Under the pieces are notes generated by a model. The model did no database searches. It was given only the letters and a program-made list of their open reading frames with translations, and was not told where the DNA came from. A DNA stretch of 64,000 bases from assembly GCA_017883205.1 (NCBI GenBank), contig JADGNZ010000023.1, forward strand, positions 1-64,000. The letters run 5' to 3'. Below, piece after piece: positions 1,562 to 11,037 of the stretch (position 1 is its first letter; every line of letters begins with the position of its first letter). This DNA is from Thermoanaerobaculia bacterium. GTDB taxonomy: Bacteria; Acidobacteriota; Thermoanaerobaculia; Gp7-AA8. A program made the translations under genes and the position numbers.

Positions 1562-2074
1562 ATGACTACAGTCGATCTGCTGACATCCACCGAGGTAACG
1601 ATCGCGCCTGTTCCACAGTCGTTTCTGGACCGCGTCCGCTCCGAAGGCATCGACGACCTCGGGCAGCCGGTCAAGCGTCTCATCGCCGCGGGCGGAGAGC
1701 CCTGCCGCGACGTTCTGCGCCGGGCCAGGGCAGGGGAGGAACTGATCCTCGCCAGCTTCACGCCATTCAGCAAGCCGGGGCCATACAAGGAGTACGGTCC
1801 GGTTTTCGTGCTGGCGCGCGCAGGCGGCGAACCCGTCCGGCGCGATGTTCTTCCGCCGGCCGGTTCCGCGACCGACTATCTGCGCGAACAGTTCGTGATT
1901 CGCGCCTATTCAGCCGAGGAGGAGATCATCGATGCGGTCATGGTCAGCGCCCCGGCGCTCGAAGAGACCGTCGATCGTTTCTTCCAATCGACCGGCACGG
2001 CATTCCTGCACGTCCGCTTTCCGACGTACGGCTGCTTCGCCATGCGCATCGATCGTACGCATGGCGAAGCGTGA
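1562..2074 (+). CDS. DUF1203 family protein
   Basis: Cytoplasmic protein of 170 aa matching the DUF1203 family, whose biochemical role is not established. The start is set at the ATG preceded by a gggagag Shine-Dalgarno; an open frame extends upstream to 1445 but has no ribosome site. Family features seen: the PCRDVLRRA segment near residue 48, the SFTPF and GPYKEYGPVFVLA block near 65-85, and the C-terminal PTYGCFAMRID. The family often has a second conserved Cys in the central block, which I do not see here. Monocistronic, followed by the convergent peroxiredoxin gene 14 bp away. Confidence 0.8.
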   Translation: MTTVDLLTSTEVTIAPVPQSFLDRVRSEGIDDLGQPVKRLIAAGGEPCRDVLRRARAGEELILASFTPFSKPGPYKEYGPVFVLARAGGEPVRRDVLPPAGSATDYLREQFVIRAYSAEEEIIDAVMVSAPALEETVDRFFQSTGTAFLHVRFPTYGCFAMRIDRTHGEA

Positions 2075-2088
2075 GTGTTCCGCGAGAG

Positions 2089-2673
2089 CTATTTCGTTTT
2101 GTGTTGGCTTATCTGACACGCGTCGACGATCTTCGTCGGATCGACTGCCTCGCTGTCGACCTGTTCCGCGGTGATTTTCCCTTCCTTGTCGATCAGGAAT
2201 GTGGCCCGGCGCGCCGACGCCATCGTCGCTCCACCGATGTGATACTCCTTTTCCAGTCCGTACGCCTTGATCGCTTTGGCGTCCATGTCGCCGAGGATCG
2301 GGAAGGTGATGCCGTTCTGCATGGCGAAGGCGTGGTTTGCGAAGGGGCTGTCGATGCTCACACCCAGGACCTGGGTGTCGGAGCCTTCCATTTTGGCCAT
2401 GCTGGCCTGGAAGGCTTTCATTTCCTGCGTTCAGCCACCGGTGAACGCGAAGACGAAGAACGCCAGCGCCACCTGCTTCTTGCCCTTGAAGTCGTGCAGC
2501 GATACCGGCTTGACCTTCTGACCGTCGTACTCGACCAGCGTAAAGTCGGGCGCAACGTCCCCCACTTTGATCTTGAGCGGCTCCGCCTCTTTCTTCTTCT
2601 CCTGGCCGAAGCCCGCCGCGCCCGACAAACAGAGCGCGGTCACCAGAAGGATTCCCATAACACGATGTCGCAT
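2089..2673 (-). CDS. Exported peroxiredoxin, probable selenoprotein (UGA = Sec81)
   Basis: AhpC/TSA-type peroxiredoxin of 194 aa if the in-frame UGA at 2431-2433 is read as selenocysteine. Residues 1-24 are a signal peptide. The thioredoxin fold starts at GDVAPDFTL (about 38-46). The UGA falls in FAFTGG-x-TQEM, exactly where the peroxidatic Cys of this family sits. The frame stays open and conserved in character on both sides: VLGVSIDSPFANHAFA, FPILGDMDAKAIKAYGL and the RRATFLIDKEGKI strand. Cys186 near the C-terminus could be the resolving residue. A strong AAGGAGG lies 6 nt before the ATG. Expected role: reduction of peroxides in the periplasm. Without Sec decoding it would be two fragments (2434-2673 and 2089-2421). 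No sel genes lie in the window, so decoding is inferred. Confidence 0.82.
2382..2416 (-). promoter_or_regulatory. Candidate bacterial SECIS hairpin
   Basis: On the mRNA strand this folds into an 8-bp lower stem AGCCTTCC/GGAAGGCT with no mismatch, an A-U pair, a 4-nt bulge on the 3' side, a 4-bp upper stem GGCC/GGCC and the loop AGCAU. The loop starts 28 nt after the UGA and has a G in its second position. These meet the published general rules for bacterial SECIS elements (loop about 16-37 nt from UGA, a G in the first two loop positions). It lies inside the coding sequence, as expected for bacteria. Confidence 0.75.
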
Positions 2674-2793
2674 GCAGCACCTCCTTGATCGTGCGGGATT
2701 AGATTAACTCAGACGGGCATGCCTGCCATCAAGCTGGACGTGACGGTCGTGGGTCAACTTGGACGACTTATCGTGGTCGCCGAAGCAAAGGCA

Positions 2794-2850
2794 ACCACAG
2801 AGACGCAGAGAACACGGAGGAGTTCTCTGTGACCTTTGTGCCTCTGTGGT
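2794..2850. repeat. Palindromic repeat family A, copy 1
   Basis: Inverted repeat of the ACCACAGAG...CTCTGTGGT type. Five further copies are at 21998, 29845, 34323, 51756 and 60122. It fills the 199-bp gap between the peroxiredoxin start and the end of the phosphatase gene. Confidence 0.9.
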
Positions 2851-2872
2851 GACCGGTTTTCCAAATGACACA

Positions 2873-4297
2873 CTACTGCGCGCTCGGAGAAGAGACCGTC
2901 GAAGAGGCCCTTCGCTTGACCACGATCAACGTCACGTCATCATCGGGCGCGCCGTCGGTTCCTCGCCATTCCGCCACATCATTGATGATGCGCATGGCAA
3001 GCGAGGCGGTGTTGTCGGCGGCGTGGCTCGTGATCGTTGTTCGCAGGCGCTCGTCGCCCCAGATCTCGGCGTCGCGGTTCGCGGTTTCCGTCACACCGTC
3101 GGTGTAGAGGACGAGAGTGTCGCCCGAGGTGAAGGGACGGGTGAGCTCTTCGTAGCGGGCGTCGCGGAAGCGGCCGAGGACGACGCCGGGGGCGATGACC
3201 TCGGCGGAGGCTTCGCCGTGCCGCAGAATCGGAGGCGGGTGTCCGGCGGATGCGACGACGAGCGTGCCTGCGGCAGGATCGATGTGGACGTAGGCGGCGG
3301 TGATGAATTGCCGCTCGAGCCGGCCGCAGAAGAGGGTGTTGAGTGCGGCGAGGATGCGCGCGGGTGAGGACGCATTCTCGATCTGCGTTGCCAGCGCGAT
3401 CTTGAGCATCGAGGCGACCAGCGCGGCCGGCACACCATGGCCGGAGACGTCGGCGATGAATAGGCCGAGCGTGCCGTTCTCGAGCTCGACGAAATCGTAG
3501 AAATCGCCGGCGACGTCGGAGGCGGGGGTGTAGACCGTCGCCACCTCGAGGCCGGCGAGACTCGGATTCGTACGTGGCAGCGCGGCAAGTTGGATCGCAC
3601 GCGCAGTGGCCAGCTCGCTGTCGACCGCGACGAGCCGCTGCTGCGCGCGCGTTCCTTCACGCATCGTCGTGATGATGATCGTCAGCATCAGGAAGAGAAA
3701 GCCGGTCGGCTCGCGCGTCAAGCCGTAGGGATCGCGGACGAAACCAAGGTGCTGATTGAGCACGAACGCGGTGAATACGAGAGCGCCGATGCGCACCAGT
3801 CCCCAACTCCGGTTCTCTGTGCCGGGCGCGAGAAGATCGATCCCGAGCACGGCAACCAACCCGAGGACGAGCGCGTTGATGACCGGGTTGAGCGCGTACG
3901 GCGAACGGAGCGCAATCTCCAGCGGAATGGCCACGGCGGCGCAGATCGCGAGCGCGATGGTGACGATCCGGTGCAGCGCCGTCCGCCTGCCTTGACTGAA
4001 CGACTTGAATAACAGCGCCGCCGGAAGGGGCACGAGGTACTCGAATGCGGACCGCACATAGGCGAGCCAGTACGGATCTCCCGAGAGCAGAGCAAAGGAT
4101 GACGTGTTGAAGGCCAGCCGGACTCCGTAGACGATGGCGAAGAGCCCGGCGTAGAGGAACGGCCGCCGCGCGTCGCGCGCACTGAGCGCGCCGAGGAGCA
4201 ACATCCCCGCGCCCATCGTGCAGAGCACCACGGCGATGACGATCGCAATCGTGTCGGCGCGAAAGGTGGCGATGACGCCGGCGGCGGTGGGGTGCAT
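2873..4297 (-). CDS. Membrane-bound PP2C-type phosphatase (SpoIIE/RsbU domain)
   Basis: A 474-aa protein with about seven hydrophobic segments in residues 15-225 followed by a SpoIIE-type serine phosphatase domain (about 260-465). Metal-binding motifs are visible: VAGDFYDF, ADVSGHG, YTDGVTE and the C-terminal DDDVTLIVV. Such proteins dephosphorylate anti-anti-sigma factors in partner-switching stress pathways; here the membrane part probably senses a signal. I chose the ATG at 4297 because the protein fold starts there; the frame stays open 30 codons upstream but that part looks non-coding. No anti-sigma partner is adjacent. Domain call is firm; the pathway is inferred. Confidence 0.85.
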   Translation of the reverse strand: MHPTAAGVIATFRADTIAIVIAVVLCTMGAGMLLLGALSARDARRPFLYAGLFAIVYGVRLAFNTSSFALLSGDPYWLAYVRSAFEYLVPLPAALLFKSFSQGRRTALHRIVTIALAICAAVAIPLEIALRSPYALNPVINALVLGLVAVLGIDLLAPGTENRSWGLVRIGALVFTAFVLNQHLGFVRDPYGLTREPTGFLFLMLTIIITTMREGTRAQQRLVAVDSELATARAIQLAALPRTNPSLAGLEVATVYTPASDVAGDFYDFVELENGTLGLFIADVSGHGVPAALVASMLKIALATQIENASSPARILAALNTLFCGRLERQFITAAYVHIDPAAGTLVVASAGHPPPILRHGEASAEVIAPGVVLGRFRDARYEELTRPFTSGDTLVLYTDGVTETANRDAEIWGDERLRTTITSHAADNTASLAMRIINDVAEWRGTDGAPDDDVTLIVVKRRASSTVSSPSAQ

Positions 4298-4411
4298 CGG
4301 ACGCGAATGATGACAGAGCGATGGGCGAGTGGATTGGTGGATTGGGAGGTGTGAGGGGTTTGCCTGCTCGGTGGTGATCGCTCCCAAACCCCTCGCGTCT
4401 GGCCGAGTATG

Positions 4412-5715: not shown

Positions 5716-8700
5716 TCAATGAATGACGGACGTTTTGGCACTCTTCTGCACACTCGGTTTCACACCCAGATGAATTTGAAACGCCGCCCACTCTCGCGGC
5801 GGTTCGGTTTGTCTCGCCTGCATCTGCGCCTCGCGCAGCGCTTCGGGTAGGTTCGCACCACTCGCAAGACTGCGGTAGAAGCGGGTCGTCAGCTCGCTCG
5901 TGCGATCATCGTCGACGTTCCAGAGCGTGGCCAGCACGGCGCGGCTTCCGGCAGCGAGAAAGGCGTTGGCGAGGCTGCGCATGCTGCCGGTTCCTCCGCC
6001 GAAGGAGCCGGTTTGACAAGCGGCCAGCACGACCAGAGGCCGGCTGACCAGCGAGAGCGATACGATGTCGCCGAGGTAGAGGAGACCTTCGTTGCCGGGC
6101 TCGGGGGTGAGCGCGATCAGTGAGAGCGACGCGTCACGGGCGCTGGAGAAGGCGTGCGCGGCGACGTGGAGTACGTCGCAATCGACAGCGGCGGACTTCA
6201 CTGCTCGAAGCGTGGCATCGTCGCCGATCAGCGCGGTCGTATGCCCGAACATCGAAGCCACTGATCTGGCATCGTAGTGGGCGGCGGGGAGCCGGTTGAG
6301 GCTTGGGAAGAGCTTCGTCGAGAATGCAGGATCGCCGACGATGGTGACGTAGGACCGCTTCGGGATGAGCGTCTGACGATCGCCGGTCAACGCGGCGCCG
6401 GCCGGCGCGATGGCGATCGCAGTTTCGTCGATCAGGAAGCGGCCGCTGGAATTGCGCAGAGCTGCGAACGGGATTCCGTACGTGATCTCATCTGGAGCGA
6501 TCACGAGCACGCGGCCTGCCGCCAATCGGTCCTGAAGCGGTGCGATCAGCAGGTCGTACAGACGGCGCGACTCCGGTTCCAACTCCGGGTTCGCCACAAA
6601 CCGATCGCGCAATCGGACCAGCTCCGCTCGATCGATGTCGACTACATGATGCGTGGCCTGGCCATGCTCGAGGACAACAAGCAACGTGCGCGAACGGAAG
6701 CTCGTGAAGTGCGCCCCGACGACGGACGGCGGCGTGCCTGCAATGATCTCTGGCAGCGACATGGCGCCGCGTCCGGCCTTGTCGAGCAGCACTCGTGAGC
6801 GCGCCCGCTCGGAGGTCTCGAAAGCTCCCATCCAATCTCCCCGCGAGAGCAAGAGGTCGCCGAGCTCTTCGTAGACATCCTCGGAACGCCCCAGGAATGC
6901 GTCGCGGAGAGTGTCGCCGGCGATTCGTTCACGTCGGGATTCAATCAGCTCAACCGCGTGACGGAGGTCCTCTTGGGCACCGGTGAGATTTCGCAACGTC
7001 CGACGGACGCGTGCACGTTGCATGAAGATCGACGGCAAAAAGGCTGGAAGACCGGCGCGGGTTCGATAGTCGATCACATCGGAAAACAGACGCTCTGCGG
7101 TGAGTGGTTGCAACTCGCGGATGGCCAGTCCTTCGGCAAGGCGAAGCTCATCCATTGAGTCGTCCCGCTGCTTCGTGTCCGGGATGTTCGTAGCAGCAGT
7201 TCGCGCCGCGGCGAGGTCGGGGGCGCGTCTGGTGGTACGCGCATCGAGGACCGCGTTCCACAAAAGACCATTGAACCTCATGAGCGGCAACGCTGAAGGA
7301 GCGGCCACCTGGACGTTGAAAAGTGAGCGGGCGATGTCGCGATCAGGTCCGTCCACCTCCTCGCGGGCGATGGCTTCAATGGCCACTTCCACCAAGTTCC
7401 ACTTCCCCGAACCCGCTGCTCCCGCAAGGGCGGCACGGCGGCTTTGCCAAGCCTCGCGATCGCGTCCCAGCCGTCCCAGCATCGCCGCTTCTGGCGTGCG
7501 CAGACGCGCCGCGTAATCAACCTCTCCCAGCTGCTCGAACGACTCGCGCGCATCACGGTTTGCAATGAGCGACTCGTAATCGTGTGCAGCGTCGTTTGTT
7601 TGTCTCCCCCGAAGCCAGAAGAGATGCGCGCGAAGCGAGCGGTACGATGGATCGAGGCGCGGCTCGATCTGTGCGGCGATAGCCTCCGACTCCTCCGGCC
7701 TGCCGAGGTCCACCAGCGCGTTGGCGCGAAAGTAGGCCGCGCTCAGTTCCATCGGATTTCCGGCCGCGGCGAAGCCTCGCTCGGCTTCAATGAATCGTTC
7801 GAGTGACTCTTTGACCCTTCTTGCCGTGTTGTCAGCTCTGCCCTGGCCGTAGGCGTGGAATGCCTGCGCGAAGGTCTCGGTGGCCTTTGACGCGGCTTGC
7901 TCAAGCAGTCCGTCCCCGTTGCACTTCTTGAGTGCAGCCGCAATCAATCTGGCGCGCGCGAGTGATTTCTCCGCGAGCGTAACGTTGCCTGCGAGGAGAG
8001 CATCGGCCCATGCGGGAAGATGTGAGGTTTCGACCGCCGTCCGTGCCTGCTGCGGGAAACGCGCGACGATTCGGTCAACCGTCGCCGCATCTCCGCGATC
8101 CAGCGCGTGATCGAGAGCGACCTCCTCGCGCTTCCACTCCTGATCGCGCGTCGGTGCCTCGGAAGTTGCCAGTCTCTCGCGCGCTTCGACTGCCCATGCC
8201 GACGTCGCGTCGATGCTCAGATACTGGCGCCAGGCATCCGCGGCGGCAAAGCGAAGGCCCAGCGCGTCGAGCGCAAGGCCACGATTGAAGAGCGCTGCTG
8301 CATGCGTCGGTTGCACCGCGAGCGCGTGATCCGCAGCCGCGAGCGATTTTGCGATCTCGCGAACGTCGTCGTTGGCCTCACCGTCCTCTAGTCGCGCGAC
8401 CGCGAGATCGTTCCAGTCGTCGGGATTCGTCGGCTCGCTGACAACGAGTGCTTCGAGCGTTGACACTGCCTGTCCCGGCTGACCGCTCAACAACGAGGCC
8501 ACGGCGGTGGTGTGTGCCTCACGACGGGGCTCGCTCAGAATCGACCTCGCTACAGATCGCAACGTCCCATCAGTGACTCGGGAACCGGAACGAGTCGATC
8601 GGGGAGCATGGCCGAAGGCGCTCAACCGGCCCTCGATCGGTCGCCACCGCTCGGACTCTGCCGAACGGATCAGCCTCTCCAACGACGTCTTGGGAGTGAA

Positions 8701-8787
8701 GATCAGGAAAGCTGCGCCGATCAACACACTCGCCGTCACAGCAGTGGCCAGCCATCCGAGGCGAGGATGCCATCTCCGAGAATTCAT
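5716..8787 (-). CDS. CHAT-domain (caspase-like) protein with TPR-like repeats
   Basis: A 1023-aa protein. An N-terminal hydrophobic segment (about residues 12-32) suggests membrane anchoring. Residues 100-650 are alpha-helical repeats of TPR type (for example HAAALFNRGLALDALG). The C-terminal CHAT domain (about 700-1015) has both catalytic residues: His878 in VLHVAAH and Cys924 in VLAACQTGS. The family are caspase-like proteases, some acting in gasdermin or CRISPR-linked defence, many uncharacterised. The start is the ATG at 8787 after a run of upstream stops in the natural gene context; the longer open frame to 10245 is antisense to the peptidase gene. Followed by an unknown gene 20 bp downstream. 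Confidence 0.88.
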   Translation of the reverse strand: MNSRRWHPRLGWLATAVTASVLIGAAFLIFTPKTSLERLIRSAESERWRPIEGRLSAFGHAPRSTRSGSRVTDGTLRSVARSILSEPRREAHTTAVASLLSGQPGQAVSTLEALVVSEPTNPDDWNDLAVARLEDGEANDDVREIAKSLAAADHALAVQPTHAAALFNRGLALDALGLRFAAADAWRQYLSIDATSAWAVEARERLATSEAPTRDQEWKREEVALDHALDRGDAATVDRIVARFPQQARTAVETSHLPAWADALLAGNVTLAEKSLARARLIAAALKKCNGDGLLEQAASKATETFAQAFHAYGQGRADNTARRVKESLERFIEAERGFAAAGNPMELSAAYFRANALVDLGRPEESEAIAAQIEPRLDPSYRSLRAHLFWLRGRQTNDAAHDYESLIANRDARESFEQLGEVDYAARLRTPEAAMLGRLGRDREAWQSRRAALAGAAGSGKWNLVEVAIEAIAREEVDGPDRDIARSLFNVQVAAPSALPLMRFNGLLWNAVLDARTTRRAPDLAAARTAATNIPDTKQRDDSMDELRLAEGLAIRELQPLTAERLFSDVIDYRTRAGLPAFLPSIFMQRARVRRTLRNLTGAQEDLRHAVELIESRRERIAGDTLRDAFLGRSEDVYEELGDLLLSRGDWMGAFETSERARSRVLLDKAGRGAMSLPEIIAGTPPSVVGAHFTSFRSRTLLVVLEHGQATHHVVDIDRAELVRLRDRFVANPELEPESRRLYDLLIAPLQDRLAAGRVLVIAPDEITYGIPFAALRNSSGRFLIDETAIAIAPAGAALTGDRQTLIPKRSYVTIVGDPAFSTKLFPSLNRLPAAHYDARSVASMFGHTTALIGDDATLRAVKSAAVDCDVLHVAAHAFSSARDASLSLIALTPEPGNEGLLYLGDIVSLSLVSRPLVVLAACQTGSFGGGTGSMRSLANAFLAAGSRAVLATLWNVDDDRTSELTTRFYRSLASGANLPEALREAQMQARQTEPPREWAAFQIHLGVKPSVQKSAKTSVIH

Positions 8788-8967
8788 GTGTGTGGGTGAC
8801 TCGGCAACATAGTAGGAGGGTTTCTTTCGACAATCCACAACGCAGTTTTTGGCCGTCACGAATTGAGGAGTGCTTTCATGACGCTCGCTGAACGCCGGTT
8901 GAAGACCCTCATGACAGAATGACCCCCAGTCTTTCGGACACTCGATCGTCCCAGCCAGGAGATTCCC

Positions 8968-11037
8968 ATGCATCGTTTCATCGTCACAATCCTCGTTCTG
9001 CTCTCGGCGTTCGCACTCGCGGCCCAGAAGGCGCCGAGCAAGGCGGACAAGCCTCTCACCCAGCTTCCGTACACGCCGAGCCTCGATATCAGAGCGATGG
9101 ACCGGTCGGTTGAGCCGTGTGCTGACTTCTACCAGTACTCCTGTGGGAACTGGATGGTGATGAATCCGATCCCTCCGGATCAGGCTTCGTGGAGTGTTTA
9201 CGGGAAGGTTGGGGACGACAATGCTCACTACCTTTGGGGCATCCTGGAGGAGGCGGCGAAGCCTTCGGCGGGGCGGACGAAGACGCAGGCTGAGATTGGC
9301 GATTACTTCGCGTCGTGTATGGATGAGGGCACGATCGACAAGCTCGGCAGCGCGCCGATCGAGCCGCTGCTGAAGAAGATCGACGGGATGAAGTCGTCGG
9401 GCGAACTGGCGATGATGCTTGCGGAGGCGAAGCGCGACTCGTCTCCTTACTACTTCGGAACGAACTGGCTTTTCCGGTCTGGTTCGACACAGGATCTCGC
9501 CGACGCAAGCAAGGTCATCGCCGAAATCGACGCCGGAGGCCTCGGGCTTCCCGACCGCGACTACTACACGAAGACGGATGACAAGTCGAAGGCGATCCGC
9601 GAGAAGTATGCGAATCACGTCGCGGCGATGTTCGAGTTGATCGGGGAGAAGAGGCCCGAGGCCGCGGAGGACGCGAAGACGGTGCTGACGATTGAGACAG
9701 CGCTCGCCGAGGCGGCGCTCACACGGGTGGAGAAGAGGGATCCGCACAATCTCGATCACAAGATGACGCTCGCGGATCTCGCGAAGATCGCCCCATCGTT
9801 CGACTGGCCGCACTACTTCTCGATTCTCGGGCTTCCGAAAGTCGATTCGCTCAATGTCGCGCAGCCGAAGTTCTTCGCGGCGGTCGAGACGGAGATCAAG
9901 AACGTTCCGCTCGCCGACTGGAAGACGTACCTTCGCTGGCATGCGGTTCACGCCCACGCGCAGTACCTGTCGTCGAAGTTCGTGGCCGAGGATTTCAACT
10001 TCTATCGGAAGACGCTGCGGGGCGTGACGGAGATGCCGCCGCGGTGGAAGACTTGCGTCCGCCTCGTCGATCACGATCTCGCCGACGCCCTCGGGCAGGA
10101 GTTCGTCCGCCGCACGTTCACTGCGCAAACGCGCCAGAAGACGATCGAGATGACCGTCCAGATCGAGAAGGCGATGGCGCAGGAGATCGCGTCGCTCGAC
10201 TGGATGACGGACGCGACGAAGAAGCATGCCCTCGAAAAGCTGCACGCGATCGCGAACAAGGTCGGGTATCCGGAGAAGTGGCGCGACTACTCATCTATTC
10301 TCTTTAAACACCAGGATTTCTACGGCAACGTTGCGCGCTCCGCGGGGTGGGCGAGCGATCGCGACTTCGAGAAGATCGGCAAGCCGGTCAACCGGGAGGA
10401 GTGGTTCCTGTCGGCGCCGACCGTCAACGCCTGGTACAACGCGCAGCTCAACGACATCAACTTCCCGGCCGGTGTGCTCCAGCCGCCGCTCTACGACCCG
10501 AGGATGGACGATGCGCCGAACTACGGCAACACCGGATCGACGATCGGCCACGAGTTGACGCACGCCTTCGACGACGAGGGGCGCCAGTTCGACGCCGCGG
10601 GGAATCTCAAGGACTGGTGGACGCCCGACGATGCCAAGGCGTTCGAAGAGCGCATCCAATGTATCCGCGATCAGTACGCGCAATACACGATCATCGACGA
10701 CATCAAGATCAACTCGAAGCTGACCTCCGGGGAAGACGTCGCCGATCTTGGCGGCACGCTGCTCGCGTATGTCGCGTGGAAGGAAGAGACGGAGAGCGAG
10801 GATCTGAAGCCGGTTGACGGATTCACTCCCGATCAGCGCTTCTTCATCGGATTCGCGCAGTGGGCCTGCACGAACGAGCGCCCCGAGAACGCCCGCATGA
10901 ACGCGGTCACGAACTCACACTCACTGGCGAAATATCGCATCAACGGGATCGTCTCAAACCTCCCGCAGTTCCAGAAGGCGTTCCAATGCAGCGACGATAA
11001 GGCGATGGTGCGAAAGAAGATCTGCAAGGTCTGGTAA
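8968..11037 (+). CDS. M13 family zinc metallopeptidase (neprilysin-like)
   Basis: Secreted or periplasmic endopeptidase of 689 aa with a signal peptide ending near residue 20. The zinc site is H528-E-L-T-H532 with third ligand E589 in GEDVADLGG; the substrate-binding VNAWYN lies upstream, and the chain ends in the family-typical CKVW. An early conserved block, DFYQYSCGNW, is also typical. The length fits full M13 enzymes (about 650-700 aa). AGGAG lies 7 nt before the ATG. The family cleaves short peptides. It stands alone, divergent from the CHAT gene and convergent with the VWA gene. Confidence 0.95.
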   Translation: MHRFIVTILVLLSAFALAAQKAPSKADKPLTQLPYTPSLDIRAMDRSVEPCADFYQYSCGNWMVMNPIPPDQASWSVYGKVGDDNAHYLWGILEEAAKPSAGRTKTQAEIGDYFASCMDEGTIDKLGSAPIEPLLKKIDGMKSSGELAMMLAEAKRDSSPYYFGTNWLFRSGSTQDLADASKVIAEIDAGGLGLPDRDYYTKTDDKSKAIREKYANHVAAMFELIGEKRPEAAEDAKTVLTIETALAEAALTRVEKRDPHNLDHKMTLADLAKIAPSFDWPHYFSILGLPKVDSLNVAQPKFFAAVETEIKNVPLADWKTYLRWHAVHAHAQYLSSKFVAEDFNFYRKTLRGVTEMPPRWKTCVRLVDHDLADALGQEFVRRTFTAQTRQKTIEMTVQIEKAMAQEIASLDWMTDATKKHALEKLHAIANKVGYPEKWRDYSSILFKHQDFYGNVARSAGWASDRDFEKIGKPVNREEWFLSAPTVNAWYNAQLNDINFPAGVLQPPLYDPRMDDAPNYGNTGSTIGHELTHAFDDEGRQFDAAGNLKDWWTPDDAKAFEERIQCIRDQYAQYTIIDDIKINSKLTSGEDVADLGGTLLAYVAWKEETESEDLKPVDGFTPDQRFFIGFAQWACTNERPENARMNAVTNSHSLAKYRINGIVSNLPQFQKAFQCSDDKAMVRKKICKVW

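Follow-up and report, generated by a model that had tools for sequence, protein, structure and literature searches.

Selenocysteine (Sec)-containing peroxiredoxins with a TxxU motif have long been known, as passages of PMC1794560 and PMC13188914 indicate, and the first bacterial example came from Eubacterium acidaminophilum, according to a study cited in part of PMC13188914. A section of the latter calls the Pro of the extended motif PxxxTxxU highly conserved. In PrxQ, the resolving Cys lies five residues past the peroxidatic Cys (CxxxxC; passage in PMC6590489), and an excerpt of PMC9312934 states that nearly all selenoproteins have Cys homologues at the same place. Four selenoproteins were counted in the Acidobacteria of 2006 (section of PMC1794560), and three are listed for Occallatibacter riparius in a passage of PMC12013277 that does not name them; some of these may belong to the family described here.

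We analyzed a peroxiredoxin gene in a 64,000-nucleotide stretch of DNA from a Thermoanaerobaculia bacterium (hereafter, the window). Its product resembles the bacterial Sec-peroxiredoxins in having an AhpC/TSA domain and Sec at the peroxidatic site within TxxU; it differs from them in a signal-peptide-like start, a C-terminal Cys and Val in place of Pro, and no Cys form was found in its clade. Against the NCBIfam PrxU model it scored 64.4 bits, compared with a cut-off of 270. Model fold and sequence matches are shared with the Cys peroxiredoxins of the Bcp/PrxQ and AhpE types, the relatives in sequence and fold being Sulfolobus Bcp4 (3hjp; 39% identity over 154 aligned residues), M. tuberculosis AhpE (1xxu) and BcpB (5epf). 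However, those proteins use Cys, whereas the window protein has Sec, no Cys at +5, the signal-peptide-like start and the C-terminal Cys. With the peroxiredoxin-like thiol:disulfide oxidoreductase selenoproteins (UxxC/UxxU), as described in part of PMC13188914, it shares the Pfam family and an active-site Sec, but it reads UTQE and contains no such motif. The Acidobacteriota Cys peroxiredoxins L127, L131 and L149 share the family and a hydrophobic N-terminus; in L148, from the window's own genome, this N-terminus was recognized by eye and scores 1.37, which is under our threshold (see below). All four have Cys and the canonical Pro, lack the C-terminal Cys and fall on a separate starred branch of our tree.

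Compared with known Sec-peroxiredoxins, what looks new is the predicted export, the C-terminal Cys (70/71 clade members), the replaced Pro (45/71) and the lack of a Cys version. Within the portions of the literature searched, no description of an exported Sec-peroxiredoxin or of this acidobacterial clade was found; the main text of PMC13188914 contains none of the terms periplasm, signal peptide and Acidobacteri. We propose that the window gene encodes an exported Sec peroxidase, a reading to which, the resolving step excluded, we assign a probability of about 0.85. The gene almost certainly specifies a working Se-containing peroxidase.

Gene structure and homologue set

The gene is read from the minus strand; its frame opens with an ATG at 2673 and closes with a TAG stop at 2089 (Table 1). 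Translation with table 11 broke it into pieces of 80 aa (2431..2673) and 110 aa (2089..2421), as the original prediction had expected of a normal gene finder. When the TGA was read as U, a single protein with exactly one TGA, at residue 81, was obtained; the surrounding FAFTGG-U-TQEM agrees with the earlier placement of the UGA at the position of the peroxidatic Cys. The frame had also been described as protein-like on both sides of the UGA, and this was confirmed: the Pfam AhpC-TSA match spans the TGA (residues 37-169, 108.6 bits; cut-off 26), and third-position codon bias was observed before and after it. In seven orthologues of the window's family, f1, codon differences at positions 1/2/3 numbered 76/64/310 before the TGA and 117/72/327 after it; in 17 g37 sequences, the numbers were 286/246/1080 before and, less sharply, 427/753/1400 after. 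No NCBIfam model reached its cut-off with the window protein, making the description of the gene as unannotated plausible. The family is split by gene finding and has no NCBIfam name; therefore, it is likely to be missed in annotation.

Table 1. Positions in the window of the Sec-peroxiredoxin gene and its features
Feature	Position	Strand	Remark
Selenoprotein gene, AhpC/TSA peroxiredoxin, probably exported; 194 residues with UGA as selenocysteine	2089..2673	-	TAG stop at 2089-2091
In-frame TGA, codon 81, read as selenocysteine at peroxidatic position	2431..2433	-	U in 70/71 distinct clade members
Shine-Dalgarno-like AAGGAGG, 6 bases 5' of ATG	2680..2686	-	From sequence
Signal peptide predicted at the N-terminus (signal peptidase I type; residues 1 to about 22)	2608..2673	-	Cleavage point by eye; hydrophobic stretch
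Cys186 codon, sole other Cys in mature protein; candidate resolving thiol	2116..2118	-	Invariant in alignment A1
SECIS hairpin 3' of TGA, arms 2407-2415 and 2383-2391, apical region 2392-2406	2383..2415	-	90.7% of cells paired, 12 sequences

In this protein, identity to the six nearest relatives that carry a name is 74-82%; all six come from metagenome assemblies of Thermoanaerobaculia or other Acidobacteria, and two bear the label 'gp7'. A class-wide search gave matches at E <= 1e-15 in 81 of 148 genomes; among the best seven orthologues besides the window's own, six contain one TGA and one contains none. The phylum-wide search used a profile of the 17-row alignment A1 in which U was entered as Cys; therefore, Cys homologues were not penalized. 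Matches at E <= 1e-30 were found in 194 of 396 Acidobacteriota genomes, and the best 60 (294.8-159.7 bits, 59 genomes) contain exactly one TGA each. The next score below 159.7 bits was 139.6, and from there on stop-free and one-TGA rows were intermixed among the matches listed.

The protein set comprised the loci from the relatives, class and phylum searches and 60 fetched stretches, and we defined the clade as the 71 distinct sequences scoring at least 150 bits after removal of duplicates. Counts of U, C-terminal Cys and N-terminus include L045 and not L129 among the 71; those of the hairpin rule and the motif Pro include L129 and not L045. Outside these tables stand eight distant relatives with Cys at the column (L031-L038) and L023-L028, which are the same proteins as L040-L045.

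Predicted export, active site and proposed mechanism

We assessed the N-termini with a hydrophobicity threshold of our own (Kyte-Doolittle mean of 1.6 over 11 residues). At this threshold, 69 of the 71 clade members showed a hydrophobic N-terminal stretch, the exceptions being L105 and L113, and cleavage sites like AFA-Q or AFG-Q were recognized by eye in orthologues; inspection by eye of the window protein leader revealed neither a twin-arginine motif nor a lipobox. These conserved signal-peptide-like N-termini support the original prediction of export, and the window protein is probably exported. The stretch was also present in 17 of the 32 other homologues; therefore, peroxiredoxin export as such looks common in the phylum. 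The accompanying claim that this is an unusual place for a bacterial Sec-peroxiredoxin was only partly right, since several Cys peroxiredoxins and a second Sec subfamily of the same phylum have hydrophobic N-termini as well.

We infer the steps from Sec insertion and export to peroxidase activity, the Sec-Cys step and its reductant as follows. SelA, SelB, SelD and tRNA-Sec would decode the UGA of codon 81, directed by a stem-loop at bases 16-48 after the UGA. The product would then be exported via the general Sec translocon, lose its signal peptide and act outside the cytoplasm, where the selenol of Sec81 would attack a hydroperoxide to give a selenenic acid. This acid may be resolved by the conserved Cys186 into a Sec-Cys (selenenylsulfide) bond, which an extracytoplasmic thioredoxin-like protein would reduce. 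Neighbouring genes were checked through the frames listed in L024 and L026-L030, with Pfam applied to five flank proteins (four loci) and five window neighbours. No thioredoxin- or DsbD-like partner was found among these Pfam-tested neighbours, a weak negative given the small sample; the only link among the neighbours tested was selA in L024. This selA (TIGR00474, 465.5 bits) lies at L024:5282-6520 (-), approximately 1.7 kb from the Sec-peroxiredoxin, which is the same protein as L041 from the same-genus genome G007.

Residue 86 of the window protein, five past Sec, is Lys; therefore, it has no resolving partner of the PrxQ/Bcp type, and we thus propose Cys186 as the resolving residue. Cys186 is located in the last helix (residue 164 of the AlphaFold model). 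The model was computed from the 54-row alignment A4, drawn from 103 distinct sequences, with Cys replacing Sec, and it shows a peroxiredoxin fold with a mean pLDDT of 94.4. Its nearest PDB entries are BcpB (5epf, Z 24.7), Bcp1 (3drn, Z 24.4) and Bcp4 (3hjp, Z 24.3), which are tied, and the AhpE structures 5id2 and 1xxu are close to it (Z 23.5). This closeness to AhpE and the Lys at residue 86 also suit an exported 1-Sec peroxidase, in which Cys186 would be structural or dimer-joining and an outside thiol would reduce the selenenic acid, as in 1-Cys AhpE. Such an enzyme would differ from our explanation in the resolving step only, and we regard it as possible but somewhat doubtful: the C-terminal Cys is present in 70 of the 71 clade members (the exception, L063, has lost its tail, apparently by a frame shift) and is nearly confined to the clade, its single occurrence among the 32 other homologues being in L129, which has Sec as well and resembles a peripheral member of the clade. 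However, Sec and the C-terminal Cys may go back to a single common origin, and therefore their pairing does not amount to many independent observations. For the resolution of Sec by Cys186 through a Sec-Cys bond, we put the chances at even.

The Pro four residues before Thr in PxxxTxxU is Val in the window protein; therefore, we filed it as a variant rather than a plain Sec-peroxiredoxin. Across 71 Sec-clade sequences this position holds Pro in 26, Val in 43, Ile in one and Ser in one, compared with Pro in 31 of 31 other homologues. The replacement of this Pro in 45 members, together with the predicted thiol:disulfide oxidoreductases among the Sec proteins of the superfamily (section of PMC13188914), could point to an exported selenoprotein that serves thiol-disulfide or repair chemistry instead of peroxide removal. 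We consider this unlikely, as the window protein has no UxxC motif and retains T-x-x-U (TGGU), the first residue of which is Thr in 69 and Ser in two of the 71 clade sequences, and R156 is invariant in the 17 rows of A1. This residue is presumably the peroxiredoxin Arg. With good confidence, the window protein is predicted to be a peroxidase.

Decoding of the UGA codon

The host assembly (6.37 Mb, 105 contigs, 99.73% complete) contains a tRNA-Sec with a TCA anticodon (71.4 bits; cut-off 47), selB (346 bits) and, on a contig other than the window's, selA (477 bits), both matches being free of in-frame TGA. It also contains selD (L018, G000:C35:91437-92372; 367 bits) with one in-frame TGA in TTGG-U-ACK, which we take to be the catalytic site of SelD; this selD is probably a selenoprotein gene itself. 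Therefore, the Sec machinery is in place and is apparently used by at least one further gene. The original prediction had made its case depend on these sel genes, and all four were found in the host genome. With strict filters, tRNA-Sec was detected in 238 of 396 Acidobacteriota genomes, namely in 55 of the 59 with the clade gene versus 183 of the 337 others (Fisher p 1.7e-9, kinship ignored); in the remaining four of the 59 (G072, G441, G357 and G385), none was found at the cut-off.

The TGA stays in a single alignment column among the orthologues. Within the clade, this column holds U in 70 of the 71 sequences and Cys in none, and neither TAA nor TAG occurs there (0/71), although identity between clade sequences with the same TGA falls to approximately 40% for some. 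In the 32 lower-scoring homologues, which were hand-picked rather than taken as a census, the column holds Cys 18 times and U 14 times, so that the proposed check for Cys or Sec in homologues returned Sec throughout the clade and both residues outside it. Every clade copy examined that has an intact active site is read as having Sec, never Cys. The one odd sequence, L045:1531-2043 (L028 is the same protein), carries a 24-nt in-frame deletion that takes the TGA codon together with the hairpin's 5' arm; its frame stays open but lacks the catalytic residue. A real loss and an assembly artefact are both possible.

A section of PMC13188914 (Fig. 2 legend) gives a rule for bacterial SECIS elements: a loop of 3-9 nt that has G at position 1 or 2, 4-16 stem pairs, a UGA-to-loop distance of 16-37 nt and an energy of <= -7.5 kcal/mol. 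We automated this rule without the energy limit and obtained the expected numbers from synonymous codon shuffles. Agreement with the rule was found in 55 of the 71 clade members (9.4 expected) and, outside the clade, in 8 of 13 Sec forms (2.6 expected), compared with one of 18 Cys homologues (3.0 expected). When judged by the minimum-energy fold, only two of seven f1 sequences passed, the window's own among them.

The window's subclade differs in its hairpin, which has a longer stem, of 8-9 bp and maintained by covariation, and an apical region of approximately 15 nt. In alignment A5 (12 sequences of this subclade), the stem formed by positions 19-27 and 43-51 encloses 15 nt of apical sequence, and pairing reached the level given in Table 1, compared with 25-58% when slid. 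Pairs 19-51 and 22-48 were changed on both sides, i.e., in a compensatory manner; these two changes were matched by 114 of 500 shuffles, and the covariation score by 2 of 500. Pair 27-43 failed in 5 and pair 20-50 in 4 of the 12 sequences. Alignment A6 (51 sequences) has a shared stem with an AGGCT or AGTCT cap 22 nt 3' of the TGA, and 89.3% of its cells pair, compared with 25-53% when slid. At its pair 24-32, a change of U-A into C-G is seen in 12 of the 39 distinct rows, its outermost pair 20-36 failed in 17 of the 39, and its count of both-side pair changes showed no excess over shuffles. The two alignments cover 51 + 12 of the 71 sequences; L112, L117-L119, L125, L126 and L129, whose hairpins take different forms, and L063, which is truncated, were omitted, and the pairing percentages are therefore flattered.

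Folding energy alone was a weak hairpin signal. The fraction of synonymous shuffles at least as stable was 0.002 for the window and 0.3%-18% for six f1 relatives (0.059, 0.151 and 0.18 in three of them). Five g37 sequences gave 0.074-0.704, and two from Bryobacterales gave 0.45 and 0.62. Codons were held constant more often in the hairpin than elsewhere, both in f1 (8/12 vs 19/59, p 0.047) and in g37 with Bryobacterales (5/7 vs 10/41, p 0.024). In 17 of 17 g37 genes, the uncommon codons GCT and GGT occur at the hairpin; their totals over these 17 genes are 28 and 29, respectively. No promoter was returned by a scan of window positions 1900-2900, and its one terminator-like match, on the plus strand, overlaps the hairpin at the 5' arm.

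The sel genes, the conserved TGA and a hairpin with compensatory pairs lead us to regard the window gene as a genuine selenoprotein gene with near certainty, Sec insertion itself being deduced from them. A sequencing error, which the original prediction had raised against itself, was ruled out because many separately assembled relatives share the TGA. We accordingly rejected, as having next to no probability, both a pseudogene or sequencing or assembly error in a peroxiredoxin gene with a premature stop, for which a lone stop in an otherwise complete frame (resembling a fresh nonsense mutation) and the lesion in L045 might speak but against which stand the TGA column conserved among distant sequences, the third-position bias past the TGA and the lack of TAA and TAG, and a genome-wide assignment of UGA to a standard residue (Trp, Gly or Cys), as occurs in some bacteria, against which stand the TGA-free selA and selB, the termination of the same-genus orthologue L041 at TGA and the tRNA-Sec with its TCA anticodon.

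Distribution and evolution in Acidobacteriota

The model that reached at least 159.7 bits in 59 of 396 Acidobacteriota genomes gave no clade match at E <= 1e-45 in Planctomycetota (0/246), Pseudomonadota (0/249) or Bacteroidota/Ignavibacteria (0/247); these phyla were assigned from the record titles of the search centres. In this search of 742 genomes, none of which was positive, at most 13 candidates per genome were scored in the rows listed, and an empty result of this kind carries no weight by itself.

In a quick maximum-likelihood tree of 102 rows (L063 dropped), no Cys row lies inside the Sec clade on a starred branch. The state of Sec with C-terminal Cys needs two changes, of which starred branches force one, and Sec versus Cys needs four. 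As drawn, Cys and other Sec branches stand between the Sec-clade groups at deep forks with support of 59-86, and the tree allows that the clade may have a single origin. Family f1 nests among sequences from families f24 and f36, possibly as a result of transfer.

We tentatively suggest, as a picture somewhat more likely wrong than right, that Acidobacteriota have widespread extracytoplasmic Sec-only peroxidases that form a Sec-Cys bond via a clade-specific C-terminal Cys and have often lost the Pro. A Cys enzyme could perhaps not take their place, and they may contribute to the retention of the Sec machinery in these bacteria. The presence of Sec in 70 of 71 sequences and of Cys in none would make it possible to test why selenium is needed there. 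If the proteins are exported, selenium would defend the cell envelope across a large phylum. The loss of Pro beside Sec constitutes a natural experiment on the role of this Pro for Cys.

Further Sec-peroxiredoxins were encountered in the phylum. One subfamily (L133, L136, L142, L146 and L153) has a hydrophobic N-terminus and GUTAEC and lacks the C-terminal Cys. Two more (TPVU/TSVU and TPGU; L132, L143, L145, L150, L152 and L154-L156) have N-termini below the hydropathy threshold. In a marine group III euryarchaeote genome, reached via L038, a peroxiredoxin match with two in-frame TGA codons was found at G502:C11:25882-26280. Around the Sec-peroxiredoxin gene, the window contains a beta-lactamase-family protein (147-1028, -), DUF1203 (1562-2074, +), a SpoIIE-type phosphatase (2873-4387, -) and a TPR and CHAT-domain protein that is part of a longer frame (5719-9000, -). 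An exact 21-base repeat, seen by eye at 1265-1285 and 1372-1392, precedes the DUF1203 gene.
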